64,000 bases of DNA from Phocaeicola barnesiae DSM 18169 = JCM 13652 (lineage in GTDB: Bacteria > Bacteroidota > Bacteroidia > Bacteroidales > Bacteroidaceae): assembly GCF_000374585.1 (NCBI RefSeq), contig NZ_KB894649.1:62001-126000 (forward strand), written 5' to 3'. A model generated the notes under the pieces. That model searched no databases. It was given only the letters and a program-made list of their open reading frames with translations, and had not been told where the DNA came from. Below are positions 49,792 to 57,117 of the stretch, one piece after another. Position numbers and translations under genes: made by a program. How positions within the stretch are numbered: position 1 is the first letter of the stretch; each line of letters begins with the position of its first letter.

Positions 49792-51456
49792 TTATTGATT
49801 ATTCTTGACCACAAAATTATCTGCAGTAAATCCAACCCGTGTTACCCAATCGCTACCCTCAAATGCAGTCTTCATGTCTGCATCTTTCACATAAATGGTT
49901 ATCTTGCTCTTTTCGAGATTATAGAAAGGCGACTCGCTATCATCACCTGGAGTATAATTGAAGGTCGGTACAGCCTCGCAAAGAGACAGGTCTATGGTTG
50001 TCAAAGAACTGCACCCGACGAAAACTGTATTATTGAATACACTGGTTTCCGGTCCGAATGATACGCTTGTCAAACTGCTACAATTGCGAAATAAGGCAGC
50101 TTCTATGCTGGCGACTTTCGTTTTACTCAAGTCAATCGTTGTCAGACTCGTACAGCCCCAGAAAGAAGAGAACTCCATTACTTCCAGTGTGGATGGAAAT
50201 TCCACAGACTGTAATGCTGTACATTCAGAGAACGTACTACCATTCCAAGAATCACCAATCACTTTTAATCCTTCGGGGAGCTTGATGGAAACCAATCCTG
50301 TTATTTGCACAAAAGCCCGGGCTGGAATGGAGGCGAGCTTTGCCCCCTTAAGGTCGAGTGAGAGCGTTGCATCGGTATTATTTGTCATATATTTCTTCAA
50401 GGCGGCAATGTCCGCATCATTCATCGGGCCTGATATGGCAAGGCTTCCATCCGTACCGATAGCATCCACTATCAATTGGGGATTTTCTGCAATCTGTCCT
50501 TCTTTGTATGTCGTAATGCTATTATTGTTTTTATCAACTTTTGGATCCTTCTGTTCCTCAGCTTCACCTTCTCCATTATCCGCAATAACAGGCCCTCCGT
50601 CATACCAGTTCTCTACCGTAACAGACGAGATGGTAATCATGTTCTTGCCCACCGTCAGGGCGTAGGTATAGCTGTTCGAGGCAGACAAAGCGGGTATGCC
50701 TTTCACAAGAAGCTCCTTTGTGTCGTCGCTGTCGTCTGCCTTTACCGTCACGGAGAGGAACGTTTCCGACTCATTCAGCGTGGTAGGACTAAGCAGGGCG
50801 TAGAACTTCCCGTTGTCATCCTTATAAGCATTTACTGCAATGCCGCCGGTTTTCGGTGTTCCGTTCTCATAACCGGACGTGTTGCCATGCACGGAGATAG
50901 CGGTGACGCTGTATCCGGTCTTGTACTGGTCGAGGAACTTAATATCGCCGATAACCACACGTGCCATCTTGCGTGTCAGATTGAGCGTTATGCTTCCGTC
51001 CGCCGAGGCCGGCTTGGTCTGGGCTCCGGAATAGGTCATGTAGTCGGCGTTCCCAATGGCTTCGAGCGAGTTTTGCTCCTTGGGCACGTCGAAGGTGGTC
51101 ATGGAGGCATTGTTCTTGTCAACCGGGTAATAGGCGTTGAAAGTGAGCGACGAGCTTGTCCACTTCAAGTAACCGCTTTCGGGACCCCAGTCCGCGCCTT
51201 CCTTCGTGTAGATTACGGCGTCTTGGCCTTCTGTTCCGACAGATATCCGGTCGCCGTCCTTGAATGCGGTCTGTTGTGTGTCATCGGTCGGAAAACTTCT
51301 GGTAATCACGTTCTTGCCGGCCGTAGCGTTGACACGCACGGCGAGCGGGTCGTTTGGATAGGAGATATTCTCCAGGTCATCGTTGCTGCAAGCGGCAAGC
51401 AGGGCAAGCAGGGCAGCAGCTCCAAAATATTTCATTCTTTTCATTTGATATGTCAT
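49792..51456 (-). CDS. Fimbrillin-family lipoprotein with LRR tail
   Basis: 554 residues. Lipobox LAAC. Residues ~25-290 form a fimbrillin (Mfa-like) domain with KNVITRSFPTD near the expected RgpA/RgpB-type cleavage site and strands such as SGYLKWTSSSLTFNAYYPVD. The C-terminal ~230 residues have LRR_5/BspA-like repeats (IKLPEGLKVIG, VEFPSTLEVMEF, FRNCSSLTSVSFG, FVGCSSLTTIDLS). Such a fusion could place an adhesive LRR at a fimbrial tip. It is last in the operon. Tandem ATGs make 51456 or 51444 the start. Confidence 0.85.
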   Translation of the reverse strand: MTYQMKRMKYFGAAALLALLAACSNDDLENISYPNDPLAVRVNATAGKNVITRSFPTDDTQQTAFKDGDRISVGTEGQDAVIYTKEGADWGPESGYLKWTSSSLTFNAYYPVDKNNASMTTFDVPKEQNSLEAIGNADYMTYSGAQTKPASADGSITLNLTRKMARVVIGDIKFLDQYKTGYSVTAISVHGNTSGYENGTPKTGGIAVNAYKDDNGKFYALLSPTTLNESETFLSVTVKADDSDDTKELLVKGIPALSASNSYTYALTVGKNMITISSVTVENWYDGGPVIADNGEGEAEEQKDPKVDKNNNSITTYKEGQIAENPQLIVDAIGTDGSLAISGPMNDADIAALKKYMTNNTDATLSLDLKGAKLASIPARAFVQITGLVSIKLPEGLKVIGDSWNGSTFSECTALQSVEFPSTLEVMEFSSFWGCTSLTTIDLSKTKVASIEAALFRNCSSLTSVSFGPETSVFNNTVFVGCSSLTTIDLSLCEAVPTFNYTPGDDSESPFYNLEKSKITIYVKDADMKTAFEGSDWVTRVGFTADNFVVKNNQ

Positions 51457-51474: not shown

Positions 51475-52446
51475 TTATTCAGTCTCCAAGTTCCCGTTGT
51501 CATCGGTTGTCCACTCGGAAGCGGAAATATTTTCGATGTTCGTGATGTCTTTGCCCACAAGCAGGTTAAGCGTATAGGCGTTGCCTTCTTTGAAGGCAAA
51601 TTCCGCATTGTTATAGACAAAGGTGCGTTCATCATCGACAATGAAGGTTATCGTGAAAGCCGCCGTCTGCGGCACAAGGATGGCTTCGGCACTCTTGCTG
51701 TAGCCTTCAACGGCAGCGTCGGAGAGCATCATCTTGATTTCCGATTTGCCGCCTGTGGCACTCACGCTGCCACTGGTAAGGTTCATAGTGTATCCGGTCT
51801 GGGTTTCACCCAATGTGACGGAGTTCAGCGAGGGTGTTGCACCATTCTGCGTCATCTCCGTGCCGTAGCGGATATTCACTGTCAGCTTGCTCAGCGCATG
51901 CCCCATTTTTACGTTCAGCTTCTTGGTGTCGGTATCATAATAAATGTCGTTGCCTGTCTCCGGTGCATTGGGCGTGACACTGGCGGCGGCGTAGAGTACG
52001 TCCGACTTTCGGCCGTTCTCTTCGATTGTCTGGTCCGATTCCACATTTCCGGTAAACTGGTTACTCAAATTGGTATTTTCGTTATATGGGGCGTATGCCG
52101 TCACATTGACAGGAGTGGACTCGTTTTGCCAGAGCATCAACCACGGGGTAGTCTTGTCGCTTTTATAGGAAGCCCATATGCCGGAATCGTCCTTTTTCAT
52201 ATACACGTTGCTGAATGTGTAGGTGGAGTTGTTTTCGTTCTCCACGAACAGCCCAAATTCTGCCAGCCCGTTTTCGGCATAGCCTACTGCACGGGTCTGC
52301 ATATTGTTCACTCCGGCTTCCAACCGAATCACGTTGTCATCGGGCAGCACGCTTTGCTGTGTACCCGTAAGCTCGTCGTCGTTCGAGCAGCCTGTCAGCA
52401 CTGTGGCGGCAAGGACTGCAAGGGTCAAAATGTTTGCTTTTTTCAT
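51475..52446 (-). CDS. Fimbrillin family protein
   Basis: 323 residues, lipobox LTGC. QTRAVGYAEN near the N-terminus resembles the Arg-directed maturation site of Mfa-like fimbrillins. The rest is a typical two-domain fimbrillin (VNVTAYAPYNENTN, KLNVKMGHALSKLTVNIRYG, PQTAAFTITFIVDDER). As the plainest module of the four it is the likely shaft subunit. It lies between the two larger fimbrillins with gaps of 18 and 83 bp. Confidence 0.88.
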   Translation of the reverse strand: MKKANILTLAVLAATVLTGCSNDDELTGTQQSVLPDDNVIRLEAGVNNMQTRAVGYAENGLAEFGLFVENENNSTYTFSNVYMKKDDSGIWASYKSDKTTPWLMLWQNESTPVNVTAYAPYNENTNLSNQFTGNVESDQTIEENGRKSDVLYAAASVTPNAPETGNDIYYDTDTKKLNVKMGHALSKLTVNIRYGTEMTQNGATPSLNSVTLGETQTGYTMNLTSGSVSATGGKSEIKMMLSDAAVEGYSKSAEAILVPQTAAFTITFIVDDERTFVYNNAEFAFKEGNAYTLNLLVGKDITNIENISASEWTTDDNGNLETE

Positions 52447-52529: not shown

Positions 52530-54449
52530 TTATTTTTCCTCCAATGTCGGCAGCGCTCCGTTGAGTACGTACTTCCAGCTTTCAGAATTCAATGCGGCGT
52601 TCATCTGTGTAACGGCATTCTGCCAGTCGCCGTCCGTCACCTTGGTGGTTTCGCCGGTACCTACCTGGTCTTCACCGATGCCTTGTTCCTGGCCGTTGTC
52701 TCCCCAGTAGCAGGCGGTGATGATACCGCCATACGGCATGAGGCCCTTGAAGTTCCGTCCCGCCACGCCGCCTGTGGCTCCTCCCGGGCCGCTGACAGTC
52801 CCTTTGGCATGGTAGCAGGCAGTCAGGGTGCCTAAATCGTTGCTTCCCGTTACGCCGCCTACATAGACGGTGCCGCTTCCGCTACCGGTCACGCTGCCCC
52901 AGGCATAGCAGGCTTTGAGGGTGCTGGATGAGCCGTTGTTTCCCACTACACCGCCGGCAAAATAGGAGCCTGTACCGCTACTTTCAATGGTCACGTTGCC
53001 CGTGGCATAGCAGGCGGTCAGGGTGGCACCACTATTCGTAGATCCCGCTATGCCGCCGGCATAGGTCACGCCCTTCACTGTGGCCGAGGAGCTGCATCCG
53101 GTAAGGGAACCGCCCACTTGGAAGCCTACTACACCGCCTGCGATGCTATGACTACCGCTACAGCTGACGCTGCCCGACACCGAGCAGTTTTCAATGTTGC
53201 CATAGCTCCATCCCGCCACGCCGCCGACATCGCTCGTACCGTTATCGCTTTCTATCTGTACGTCCTTCAGCGTCACGTCCTTCACCTTGCCGCCGGAGCC
53301 GATGCAGCCGAACAGGCCCACATAGCGGTCACTCGTCGTAACGGTCAACCCCGTGATGGTATGGCCGCCGCCGTCGAAGGTGCCGGTGTATGGGTTGTCA
53401 TAGGTTCCTATCGGCGTCCAGTTGATGCCTGTCAGGTCGATGTCGTTGTCGAGGGTGATGTTGATGTCGGTATTACCGCTGTTCACCTCATCTGCCGCTA
53501 CCTTCAGTCCTTCACCGCTGTAAATGGTGATGGTTCGGGTATTGGAATCGTATGAGTAGGCTTCGGTCGCTTCTGCGCCATCAATGGAAGTACCGTTTTC
53601 CCAGTCCGACACGCTGATGCCCGCATCGTCCAGTTTGATGTTGTCGCGTCCCAGCACAAGGTTCACCGTAGTGTATCTGCCCGGTTGCAGGTCTATGCCT
53701 GAAGGGTGGGTATAGGTATATACCTTGCCGTTCTCCAGCGTGACGTTGATGGTGCGGAACCCGCTCTGCCCGGGAATCATGATGCCGGCAAAGCTGGCGG
53801 ATGTGCCCGTGAAGGGAATCACCACAAGGTTTTGACCGGTGGCCGGGGTTACCTCGACAGGATTCTCTAAATAATTCACGGTGGCTTCGGTGCATGCGAC
53901 TGCCGTTACCGAAACCACTTCGGGAGCAATTGTCCACTCGTTGCGGAACGAAAGGTTTACCACGAGCTTTGCCATTACATGCTCAAACTCCAGTTTCACG
54001 GCAGAACCGGTGGGCTTGGCCGTGGTCCTCGCCACCAGCAGGTCGCTCGCGGTCTGGTTATTGAAGTCCAGCGTATAGGGGTCGGCATCGTAATCGGTAG
54101 CTCCGTTGCGCTCGGGATAGATGCCGAGGAAATAGTGGTCGGACGTATTGTCGGCCCAAAGCATCTGCGGCTCGGCGGTCCATGTGCCGTCGCCGCCTAA
54201 TGTATTGATGGAGTTGTCCACCACAAGCCGCTGCATGTCGTTGTCGGCTCCTAACCAGGCATAGACACTGATGCGGTCATTCGTCTCGAAGGTGGTCGAG
54301 TTGCCGCTATGGACCACACGGGTCATGGCTCCCACGGATGCCGTTACCCTTATCTGTCCAAGGTCTTGCGGTGGCAGTACATCGCTGTCGGTGCTGCACG
54401 CAGCCAACAGGATAGCGGTTGTTGCCAATAATAGATTCTTTATATTCAT
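52530..54449 (-). CDS. Fimbrillin family protein with GLUG repeats
   Basis: 639 residues, lipobox LAAC. The N-terminal ~290 residues are a fimbrillin domain (AMTRVVHSGNSTTFETNDRI, KLEFEHVMAKLVVNLSF). The C-terminal half begins YSYDSNTRTITIYSGEGL and holds at least five GLUG-type repeats (VGLFGCIGSGGKVKDV, VGGVAGWSYGNIENCS, GGVVGFQVGGSL, AGGIAGSTNSGATL, AGGVVGNNGSSSTL). GLUG repeats form beta-solenoids in adhesins, so a tip or decorating adhesin is likely. Confidence 0.88.
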   Translation of the reverse strand: MNIKNLLLATTAILLAACSTDSDVLPPQDLGQIRVTASVGAMTRVVHSGNSTTFETNDRISVYAWLGADNDMQRLVVDNSINTLGGDGTWTAEPQMLWADNTSDHYFLGIYPERNGATDYDADPYTLDFNNQTASDLLVARTTAKPTGSAVKLEFEHVMAKLVVNLSFRNEWTIAPEVVSVTAVACTEATVNYLENPVEVTPATGQNLVVIPFTGTSASFAGIMIPGQSGFRTINVTLENGKVYTYTHPSGIDLQPGRYTTVNLVLGRDNIKLDDAGISVSDWENGTSIDGAEATEAYSYDSNTRTITIYSGEGLKVAADEVNSGNTDINITLDNDIDLTGINWTPIGTYDNPYTGTFDGGGHTITGLTVTTSDRYVGLFGCIGSGGKVKDVTLKDVQIESDNGTSDVGGVAGWSYGNIENCSVSGSVSCSGSHSIAGGVVGFQVGGSLTGCSSSATVKGVTYAGGIAGSTNSGATLTACYATGNVTIESSGTGSYFAGGVVGNNGSSSTLKACYAWGSVTGSGSGTVYVGGVTGSNDLGTLTACYHAKGTVSGPGGATGGVAGRNFKGLMPYGGIITACYWGDNGQEQGIGEDQVGTGETTKVTDGDWQNAVTQMNAALNSESWKYVLNGALPTLEEK

Positions 54450-54496: not shown

Positions 54497-55549
54497 TTAC
54501 GCACCCGGAAAAAATATGTTACCGCCATAGTCGCCTTCGAGCGGAGCCCAGTCGGTGATGGTGATGTCACCCACCGTCAGTTCCGGGTCGGGGTCGGGTT
54601 CCGGCCAGTATGGCGGAGGAGTAGGTTCAGGGTCAGGAATCTCTATGGTTCCTTCCATTTGCAGGGTGCTTCCTGCACTCAGGTCGGCCAGTTTGTCCGT
54701 CACGTCCAGACTGAACGTCACAGTCCTTCCGTCTGTCAGTTCCAGGCGGAAGGACAGGGTATTCCCGGCTTTCGGAAAGGCTCCCAGCGAACACAGGAAC
54801 AGTTCCAGCCCCTGAATCTTCTCTGCCCGTGAGCGGGTGAGCTGTTTCACCTGGAAGACGGCGGTCACCGCTTCGCCCGTCGGTGTGCCTTCTGGCAGGA
54901 GGACAGCCCCCGTCATACCCGTCAGGGTGATGTCGCCTTGTTCCTTGATTTCCACCGCTTCATCCAGCGTCAGGCTGATGCGCAAGGTGCGGGTCCGTTC
55001 GTGCATGCGCAGTGTCACGTCCGTAGTGTCGCCTGCCGTCACACAGTAGAGGGTGTCTGCCGTCCACAGCCGTTCCGGCATTGACAGCAGCTGTCCCGCC
55101 TCATCCAGTTCCAGGGTGGCGAGTCCGTCGGACGTCACGGTGACGGCTTCGGGGATGTTCCATGCCGTTATGTGGTATTCACCCGCGGTCAGAGTGTCCG
55201 GGTAGAGACAGGGAGTTCCGGCAGGAACGGTGAGCGCCTTTCCGGCCAGGTTCAGTACAAAGTCCGCAGGCAGGTCTGCGGTGCCTGCCGTCTGTTCCCA
55301 GAGAGGAGTGAAGACCAGACAGCCGGCCGTGGGTGCGGGTTGCGGCTCAGGTTCTGGCTCCGGTTCTGGCTCCGGTTCGGGCTCCGGTTCCGGCTCAGGC
55401 TCGGGCTCCGGTTCCGGTTCCGGCTCGGGTACAGTCTCCTCGGGAGTGACCGAGTCATCGTTCCCGCAGGCAGTCCATAGCGGCAACAGTATGAGCAGGA
55501 ATGCATAGAGGTAATGTCTGATTGTCTTTAAGTAGTTCCTTTTTTTCAT
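54497..55549 (-). CDS. FimB/Mfa2-like fimbrial anchor with long PE repeat linker
   Basis: 350 residues; lipobox TAC (LPLWTAC). After ~20 residues comes a run of ~14 Pro-Glu pairs (about residues 41-69), then FimB/Mfa2-like beta domains (FVLNLAGKALTVP, DVTLRMHERTRTLRISLTLD). It lacks the Arg maturation site of the other three subunits and is first in the operon, as expected for the membrane anchor. The start codon overlaps a leader-frame stop as ATGA (see findings). Confidence 0.8.
   Translation of the reverse strand: MKKRNYLKTIRHYLYAFLLILLPLWTACGNDDSVTPEETVPEPEPEPEPEPEPEPEPEPEPEPEPEPEPQPAPTAGCLVFTPLWEQTAGTADLPADFVLNLAGKALTVPAGTPCLYPDTLTAGEYHITAWNIPEAVTVTSDGLATLELDEAGQLLSMPERLWTADTLYCVTAGDTTDVTLRMHERTRTLRISLTLDEAVEIKEQGDITLTGMTGAVLLPEGTPTGEAVTAVFQVKQLTRSRAEKIQGLELFLCSLGAFPKAGNTLSFRLELTDGRTVTFSLDVTDKLADLSAGSTLQMEGTIEIPDPEPTPPPYWPEPDPDPELTVGDITITDWAPLEGDYGGNIFFPGA
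55340..55432. repeat. Hexanucleotide repeat encoding Pro-Glu linker
   Basis: Imperfect repeats of GGCTCC/GGTTCC type (plus strand) code for alternating Pro-Glu. Copy number changes would alter linker length without breaking the frame. Confidence 0.7.
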
Positions 55550-55608
55550 TGTATAGTAATTATGTTATTTAGGGAATTTTTAATGGGGTAAACGTGACAT
55601 ACGGATAC

Positions 55609-55651
55609 GAAAAAGGGCGGAAAGCTCCCGTAAAAAGGAGTTTCCACCCTT
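55609..55651 (-). terminator. Terminator/attenuator hairpin in the fimbrial leader
   Basis: The minus strand pairs AAGGGTGGAAA with TTTCCGCCCTT (one G-U) and CTCC with GGAG around an 8-nt loop, with one bulged C, followed by a T run. It lies 60 bp before the anchor gene start. Confidence 0.65.
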
Positions 55652-55704
55652 GCATGTATTGATGATAATAAGTATATTAACGCGCGAAGATACGCCGGTC
55701 GCAA

Positions 55705-55722
55705 TGTGTGTGTGTGTGTGTG
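55705..55722. repeat. (TG)9 / (CA)9 dinucleotide tract
   Basis: Nine uninterrupted TG units on the plus strand in the fimbrial leader. Such tracts are prone to slipped-strand changes. Confidence 0.85.
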
Positions 55723-55977
55723 TTTACACAAATCTCACACATTTCCAAATTTGCAACACACTTTTTTGAATATAGGTATATGCACGATGCAGCGGACAAC
55801 GGAATGTTGCCTGAACAGATTGCCATATTTCCTGAAATGTGCTGTAAATCAAAATACATTGTCATTCAATTATTAAATTCCGTTTGCAAAGTTAGCGGAT
55901 TTTAACGGAAAGTGAGAGGACAATCTTAGAAAATTTGAAGGACAATTCAAGGAAAAATGCTCATAATGAGGGACAAT

Positions 55978-57117
55978 TCAGGGAATTTCCTTAAATTGTC
56001 CTTCTGTGTTCTTGTCCTGCATCCCGGATTTCAGGTTTCGGCTGTAAGTCCTTACATTGGAAAAACCGCAATGTGTAGCAATTTCTTCACGGCTTGCCGA
56101 AGGGTGTTCTTCCCGGTATCGGACAGCGGCCTCAATCCTGAGCCGGTTCAGTTCCTTATAAAAGGAACCGAAACGTTCTTTCATGACAATGGATACATAT
56201 TTCCGGTTGCTCTTTACCGCATCTGCCAGTTCGCCGATTTTCAGGTTCGGATTCAGGTAAAGCCTGTCCTCGGTCAATGCTGCCCGTATTTTCGCTTCCA
56301 GTTCATCCTTGGCATCAACAGACAGCAGGCTGCTGCCGCTTTCCTGATCTGACAGTACCGTTTCTATTTTCTCCACTATGAGTTCTTCCGTTTCTTCTAC
56401 CACCTCCCGATATTCTTTTCGTTGCGGATGCAATATCCGTATCAAAAGTACGATGTGCATGACAGAAATGACCAGCTGGAACCACATGTTATAATTATGG
56501 TCGCCTGTAAAAAACAGCCACCATGCGGCTCCCAGATACAGCACCGGCATGAATACGACAAAACCGGCAAAACGTACCGGAAAATCTTCACTGTTGGAAT
56601 ATTCTTCCTGCATGTGTAGGCGAATCTGGCGCAACAGCCAGCTTGTGGTATGCAACAGCATGGCTGTAAGCAGCAGGGAATATCCTCCGATAAGGAGAAG
56701 AAGCATATCACGATGGCGGTAGAGGGTATCTCCGCCAATCCAGCCGTATATCCAACAGACCAGTATAATGACAAGAGGAATGATACCGGACAATACAAAT
56801 ATCAGTCTGCGGTGTCTTGTCTTGCTGAAGAAAAACCGGCGGAACGACAACACGCCCGCACCGGGCAACAGCAGCATAAGAAAAACACGCATAAAGAAGT
56901 ATGCGTCCGGGCTGTCCATGCGGAAAAGCCATACCACAGGCAAGGCAAAACAGGCATAGATAATTGTGACGAGCTTGCGGGCCGGATAAAAATAGGTTTC
57001 TTCCTCGTCAAACGGACGGCACATGTGGAAATAACGCACCAACGCACAAAACAGTGACGTAACGACCAGTATCAGGCAGGATGCCGCATAATATATTTCA
57101 GGACCTTGTATTATCAT
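55978..57117 (-). CDS. Membrane-anchored AraC-family transcriptional regulator
   Basis: 379 residues. Six to seven membrane spans fill residues ~1-235 (AASCLILVVTSLFCALV, LPVVWLF, LIFVLSGIIPLVIILVCWIYG, LLLLIGGYSLLLTAMLL). The cytoplasmic C-terminus carries an AraC-type double HTH (LKIGELADAVKSNRKYVSIV, ASREEIATHCGFSNVRTYSR). Such regulators are known beside Bacteroidales fimbrial operons. It lies 429 bp upstream of the anchor gene on the same strand and is the obvious candidate to control it. Confidence 0.85.
   Translation of the reverse strand: MIIQGPEIYYAASCLILVVTSLFCALVRYFHMCRPFDEEETYFYPARKLVTIIYACFALPVVWLFRMDSPDAYFFMRVFLMLLLPGAGVLSFRRFFFSKTRHRRLIFVLSGIIPLVIILVCWIYGWIGGDTLYRHRDMLLLLIGGYSLLLTAMLLHTTSWLLRQIRLHMQEEYSNSEDFPVRFAGFVVFMPVLYLGAAWWLFFTGDHNYNMWFQLVISVMHIVLLIRILHPQRKEYREVVEETEELIVEKIETVLSDQESGSSLLSVDAKDELEAKIRAALTEDRLYLNPNLKIGELADAVKSNRKYVSIVMKERFGSFYKELNRLRIEAAVRYREEHPSASREEIATHCGFSNVRTYSRNLKSGMQDKNTEGQFKEIP

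Follow-up and report, generated by a model that had tools for sequence, protein, structure and literature searches.

A (CA)n leader frame upstream of a fimbrial operon of Phocaeicola barnesiae resembles a phase-variable transcription attenuator and has counterparts across Bacteroidota

Can the number of CA units in a small upstream reading frame decide whether a fimbrial operon is transcribed? This question is raised by a locus of Phocaeicola barnesiae DSM 18169 = JCM 13652, located in the stretch of 64,000 nucleotides analysed here (contig NZ_KB894649.1, positions 62,001 to 126,000; referred to as the window). On the minus strand, which carries all features described below, an AraC-like regulator gene is followed by a repeat array, a -7 box, a leader ORF, a (CA)9 tract, a hairpin and a fimbrial operon. 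The first gene (54497-55549) encodes an Mfa2/FimB-type fimbrial anchor lipoprotein (Pfam Mfa2 1.1e-6, above the cut-off). It precedes genes for three fimbrillin-like proteins, one with GLUG repeats (52530-54449; Mfa_like_1 2.6e-38), one without a further assignment (51475-52446; Mfa_like_1 1e-29) and one with BspA-type leucine-rich repeats, which is a possible tip protein (49792-51456; Mfa_like_1 2.4e-18, LRR_5 1.5e-20). With an Mfa2 anchor and three Mfa_like_1 proteins the cluster qualifies as a type V (Mfa/Fim) fimbrial operon, the operon structure being inferred from the spacing of the genes. A protein search of the genome contigs collection with the anchor gene gave no match. The anchor protein contains a long Glu-Pro repeat, (EP)n, right after the lipobox region (55310-55445); here the coding sequence is itself repetitive, and its length could vary.

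The AraC-like gene upstream of the leader (57117-55978) is an ORF with membrane segments and a weak HTH_18 match (E=4e-4, below the Pfam cut-off). Between this gene and the leader promoter P1 lies an array of GGACAATT/AATTGTCC repeats (55917-56004), with direct copies at 55979-55971, 55948-55940 and 55925-55918, spaced 31 and 22 nucleotides apart, and inverted arms at 55937-55955 and 55986-56004. We infer that this array probably provides the operators of the neighbouring AraC-like regulator.

The (CA)9 tract (55705-55722), the proposed switch, is situated inside the leader ORF. It is far beyond chance, as shuffling the window 100 times produced no match. The 3.62-Mb genome gave five matches to (CA)5, every one of which corresponds to this single tract, no other run of at least five CA units being present. 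A search of Rfam returned only a chance mir-466 match on the repeat. With nine units, the frame starting at ATG 55865 crosses the tract and ends at 55677 (TAA, 55679-55677), approximately 25 nucleotides ahead of an intrinsic-terminator-like hairpin (55651-55610) that is followed by TTTTT. The predicted fold of this hairpin amounts to -25.4 kcal/mol, as compared to -10.7 +/- 2.5 in shuffles (z -5.9). With 8 or 11 units, the leader frame ends at 55546 with a TGA codon (55548-55546) that overlaps the ATG of the anchor gene at 55549 as ATGA. The arithmetic thus confirms what a preliminary description of this DNA had claimed, namely that a minus-strand leader frame crosses (CA)9 to stop at 55677, and that loss of one CA unit or gain of two moves the stop to the anchor start. 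These two changes do carry the frame across the hairpin, as had been stated. However, the gain of a single unit, which had not been counted, does so as well, since the 10-unit frame ends at 55580, past the hairpin. Both n=3k+1 and n=3k+2 therefore pass the hairpin in the window and only n=3k+2 reaches the anchor start, so that ON is not a single clean frame at this locus.

We consider it quite probable that the locus is a phase-variable, translation-controlled transcription attenuator, the switching and its effect on expression being inferred. According to this proposal, P1 would yield a leader mRNA whose small ORF enters (CA)n, and strand slippage would alter n and thereby the frame in which ribosomes exit the tract. 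In the case of n=3k, including the assembled nine-unit allele, translation would stop at 55677, the hairpin would form and transcription of the fimbrial genes would end early (OFF). In the case of n=3k+1 or n=3k+2, ribosomes would translate across the hairpin, which would be blocked, and transcription would go on (ON). By analogy with Pil1 of Streptococcus gallolyticus, n=3k should be the OFF state of the window, while opening of the terminator would be expected in either of the other two states. With n=3k+2, ribosomes would also end at the ATGA (55549-55546), where re-initiation on the anchor gene might occur. Opening of the terminator combined with re-initiation had been suggested before; the opening is supported by the comparative statistics given below, though by no experiment, and it does not need the frame ending at 55546, because a tract of either n=3k+1 or n=3k+2 units leads the frame across the hairpin. 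Re-initiation is accordingly kept as a possible addition and not as the core of the mechanism. That the tract slips within a population, that the leader is translated and that the terminator is active are likewise inferences.

A scan for GTGTAAA(CA)8 yielded 106 stretches, and the arrangement recurs in Phocaeicola/Bacteroides, Alistipes, Prevotella, Paraprevotella, Parabacteroides, Odoribacter, Butyricimonas, Riemerella, Bergeyella and others. When bare CA tracts were scanned without the GTGTAAA prefix, the same context was found at 33 of 65 non-identical tracts, and the tracts without this context come largely from other lineages. Few tracts emerged from a wide draw across the phylum, and most of these were CA runs of other classes without relation to the family; therefore, the family is not universal. 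One match in IMG/VR (L203) was considered as a viral copy and rejected, its flanks being the same as those of the Riemerella columbina loci.

The repeat number varies considerably among these loci, the homologous ones carrying 8 to 42 CA units. The leader homologous to that of the window in Phocaeicola/Bacteroides (GTDB genus) has 9, 11, 12, 13, 19, 20 or 21 units between closely matching flanks. In B. mediterraneensis, two loci (L005 and L012) are identical in regulator, leader and first gene over 1.4 kb (700 nucleotides on each side) except for 19 versus 21 units, and eight places in Bergeyella zoohelcum with identical flanks carry 10, 23, 26, 37 or 39 units. The values of n mod 3 are evenly spread (25/26/29). 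At only 8 of 46 loci does the assembled allele correspond to the longest frame, hence most assembled alleles may be in short frames, an indication that is too weak to lean on. As a further observation, at least ten tract-bearing leaders per genome are present in Bergeyella zoohelcum (NZ_JH932293.1) and Riemerella anatipestifer CCUG25054, each located, where readable, before a 'VGINT' surface-type protein.

The leader ORF was compared among these loci. At 58 loci, only one frame lacks a stop in the 36 nucleotides that precede the tract, and upstream of those 36 nucleotides this entry frame continues without a stop for a median of 35 codons, as compared to 7 for the other frames (p 2e-14). Moreover, 58 of 76 loci have a TAnnTTTG box with an in-frame ATG 8-45 nucleotides further on, from which the frame is open to the tract, although the control for this count is weak, as the TAA at the tract often blocks the other frames. 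In the window, the -7 box of P1 is TAACTTTG (55887-55894), for which the Phocaeicola homologues conserve TA(A/T)CTTTG; a TTG at -33 is missing here, and a TTG at a distance of 18-21 nucleotides occurs at 33 of the 76 loci. The start at ATG 55865 proposed in the preliminary description holds as to its frame, but this codon reads ATT in three homologous leaders (L007, L008 and L019), all of which keep the same-frame ATG 55859, which on comparison is the likely start. The amino acids of the leader are not conserved: between the window and L007, changes by codon position number 3/11/12, and the peptides are unlike. The lack of peptide conservation would be expected if only openness of the frame matters, yet it leaves us without a positive sign of coding.

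Downstream of the tract, the longest frame reaches within 35 nucleotides of the first gene at 31 of 54 non-redundant loci, whereas 10.5 +/- 2.2 are expected from dinucleotide shuffles (combined Fisher p 8e-20); the second-longest frame at these 54 loci is no longer than expected from the same shuffles. The long frame ends at the ATGA of the first gene at nine loci, including the window and loci of Odoribacter, Paraprevotella, Butyricimonas and Riemerella columbina. It ends within 25 nucleotides of the first gene at 17 of the 54 loci and is fused to it in frame at eight. These endings lend some weight to an alternative in which n acts on translation of the first gene alone, via re-initiation at ATGA or in-frame fusion, and not on transcription, a possibility that we deem rather unlikely without setting it aside. 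However, an ATGA ending follows automatically once the frame is open to the gene, because 41 of the 54 first genes begin with ATGA, and several long frames stop 30-60 nucleotides before the gene. In addition, an effect on translation alone does not account for the terminator-like hairpins that stand between the tract and the first gene at 33 of the 54 loci, as compared to 4.2 expected, strong by prediction, mostly unrelated in sequence and in every case crossed by a frame. Exactly one frame reaches the hairpin at 26 of these 33 loci and two frames do so at 7, while none has zero or three; shuffles would leave 17.8 of the 33 with zero.

The remaining 21 loci lack a hairpin by the criterion used, and some of these are in-frame fusions. 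Since the loci share ancestry to an extent that is not known, the p-values err on the optimistic side; in addition, several cut-offs were set with the data already in view. With these reservations, sequence and comparative statistics together establish the leader frame, the predicted terminator, the frame geometry and the variability of n.

A second element has to be considered at the tract itself. In the window, TTTG (55749-55746), 19 nucleotides and TAAA (55726-55723) directly abut the CA repeat, and TTTG-N19-TAA(A) is found in this position across Bacteroidia: among 54 unbiased tracts that adjoin a TA, 27 have the spacing of 19, and no other spacing is represented by more than 3 of them. 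The element resembles a Bacteroidota -33/-7 promoter in which CACA replaces the TTTG of the -7 box, and its role is unexplained. It could work as a promoter with the transcription start inside (CA)n, so that the tract length tunes initiation, escape or the 5′-UTR and the upstream ORF is irrelevant. No DNA-level signal near the tract is sharper than the spacing of exactly 19, and this spacing fits the Bacteroidota -33/-7 architecture, for which the -7 consensus TANNTTTGY has been published (PMC12632263). Nevertheless, the TTTG half of that box is missing, the -33/-7 spacing is fixed whatever the value of n, and such a promoter predicts neither the open upstream frame, nor the canonical TAnnTTTG before the leader ATG, nor the one or two frames crossing the terminator. 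The frame that stays open upstream, together with the P1 boxes and the geometry at the terminator, leads us to regard this explanation merely as a rival, and as an improbable one. A further motif, CGCGCGTTAATATAC, similar to CGCGCGTnAATATAC, was recognized by eye in aligned contexts and without a statistical test at 55686-55672 in the window; CGCGCGTnAATATAC-like sequences lie 20-35 nucleotides past the tract in several genera (among others L037, L043, L064 and L082).

Two established types of DNA switch were tried and rejected: a promoter-spacing switch of the hif type, as the distance from TTTG to TA is 19 irrespective of n and the tract lies downstream of both elements, and a Bacteroides invertible promoter, as no inverted repeats flank promoter and tract, those present in the region being the 55917-56004 array or weak 11-12-mers. 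The notion that the tract is merely a slippery relic with coincidental frame patterns can practically be dismissed, for although neutral drift would also give the even spread of n mod 3 and the leader peptide is not conserved, it leaves unaccounted for the statistics that many genera yield on frame, terminator and spacing, as well as the position of the genome's only CA tract before a surface operon.

The leader attenuator that we favour would serve more than fimbriae. First genes after the tract include fimbrillins, Mfa1-like proteins, OmpA/DUF3575 proteins, TonB-dependent receptors and a histidine kinase, as well as Pvc16_N of contractile injection systems in Alistipes and unnamed 'VGINT' surface-type proteins in Flavobacteriia, for which neither Pfam nor NCBIfam gave a name. 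The leader precedes a gene of the Pvc16_N (DUF4255) type in three loci of uncultured Alistipes/Prevotellaceae (L043, L070 and L112), confirmed by Pfam for L070, the other two beginning alike; this placement suggests phase-variable contractile injection systems. We lean towards the view that these loci form an ancient, phylum-wide family of contingency loci, in which leader attenuators of the (CA)n type that possess a dedicated TTTG-N19-TAA(A) element switch fimbriae, OmpA-type proteins, TonB receptors, contractile injection systems and Flavobacteriia surface proteins; some genomes would have at least ten independently switching copies. Within such a family, TTTG-N19-TAA(A) would perhaps be a second promoter or a sigma-dependent pause that unites RNA polymerase and ribosome at the tract.

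In trp-type attenuators, the position of the ribosome on the leader decides whether a terminator forms. Their input is the amino-acid supply, whereas the input of the Bacteroidota element would be a heritable repeat length. The closest likeness is to an experimentally proven case, the Pil1 and Pil3 loci of S. gallolyticus, where short GCAGA repeats lie in a leader ORF before a pilus operon, and the repeat number shifts the frame and varies among isolates (PMC3894217). There, the short frame stops before a stem-loop terminator, and repeat changes that put the frame out of register lengthen the peptide into or past the terminator, upon which pilus transcription rises in a translation-dependent manner (PMC3894217). 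The Bacteroidota element appears to have every part of the Pil1 design that a sequence can reveal: a repeat tract inside a leader ORF upstream of the operon, an intrinsic terminator between leader and first structural gene, and a stop that shifts with repeat number from before to beyond this terminator, in the window and at the 33 loci. The repeat number likewise differs from species to species and, in one genome, among copies that are otherwise identical, though this is not variation within the population of one strain. The two systems differ in that pentamers, sortase pili and a Firmicute stand against a CA dinucleotide and type V fimbriae, OmpA, injection-system and other genes. Moreover, the long frame in Bacteroidota often runs on to the ATG of the first gene or fuses with it, and TTTG-N19-TAA(A) is an extra. 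No sequence relation between the S. gallolyticus and the Bacteroidota leaders was seen, and the family appears to be unrelated in sequence to Pil1. The (TA)n tract of hifA/hifB in Haemophilus influenzae is likewise a dinucleotide repeat controlling fimbriae, but it lies between -35 and -10 and alters their spacing (PMC2651432), whereas in Bacteroidota the spacing is constant and the tract lies in the leader ORF. The invertible promoters of Bacteroides and UpxY-mediated antitermination of capsule operons also place phase variation or antitermination before surface-structure operons, and in the same phylum; they act through DNA inversion by a recombinase and through a NusG-like protein (PMC12632263) and not through a repeat tract in a leader ORF. 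A description of such a CA-repeat leader switch in Bacteroidota was not found in open-access full text, subscription journals and preprints being outside the scope of this search. Hence, a widespread CA-repeat on/off switch before Bacteroidota surface-protein genes has apparently not been described.

Phase variation in gut Bacteroidota has been described mainly as DNA inversion. If the proposal is correct, a repeat-based attenuator read by the ribosome would constitute a second, overlooked layer, and the one known leader-attenuation switch, that of S. gallolyticus, would have a widespread independent counterpart. A count of CA units in available genomes and metagenomes would directly reveal the state of the switch, and the many tract-bearing leaders in Bergeyella and Riemerella genomes offer potential for combinatorial variation. 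From Phocaeicola to Riemerella, such a switch would determine the cells in which fimbriae, injection systems and further surface proteins are produced.
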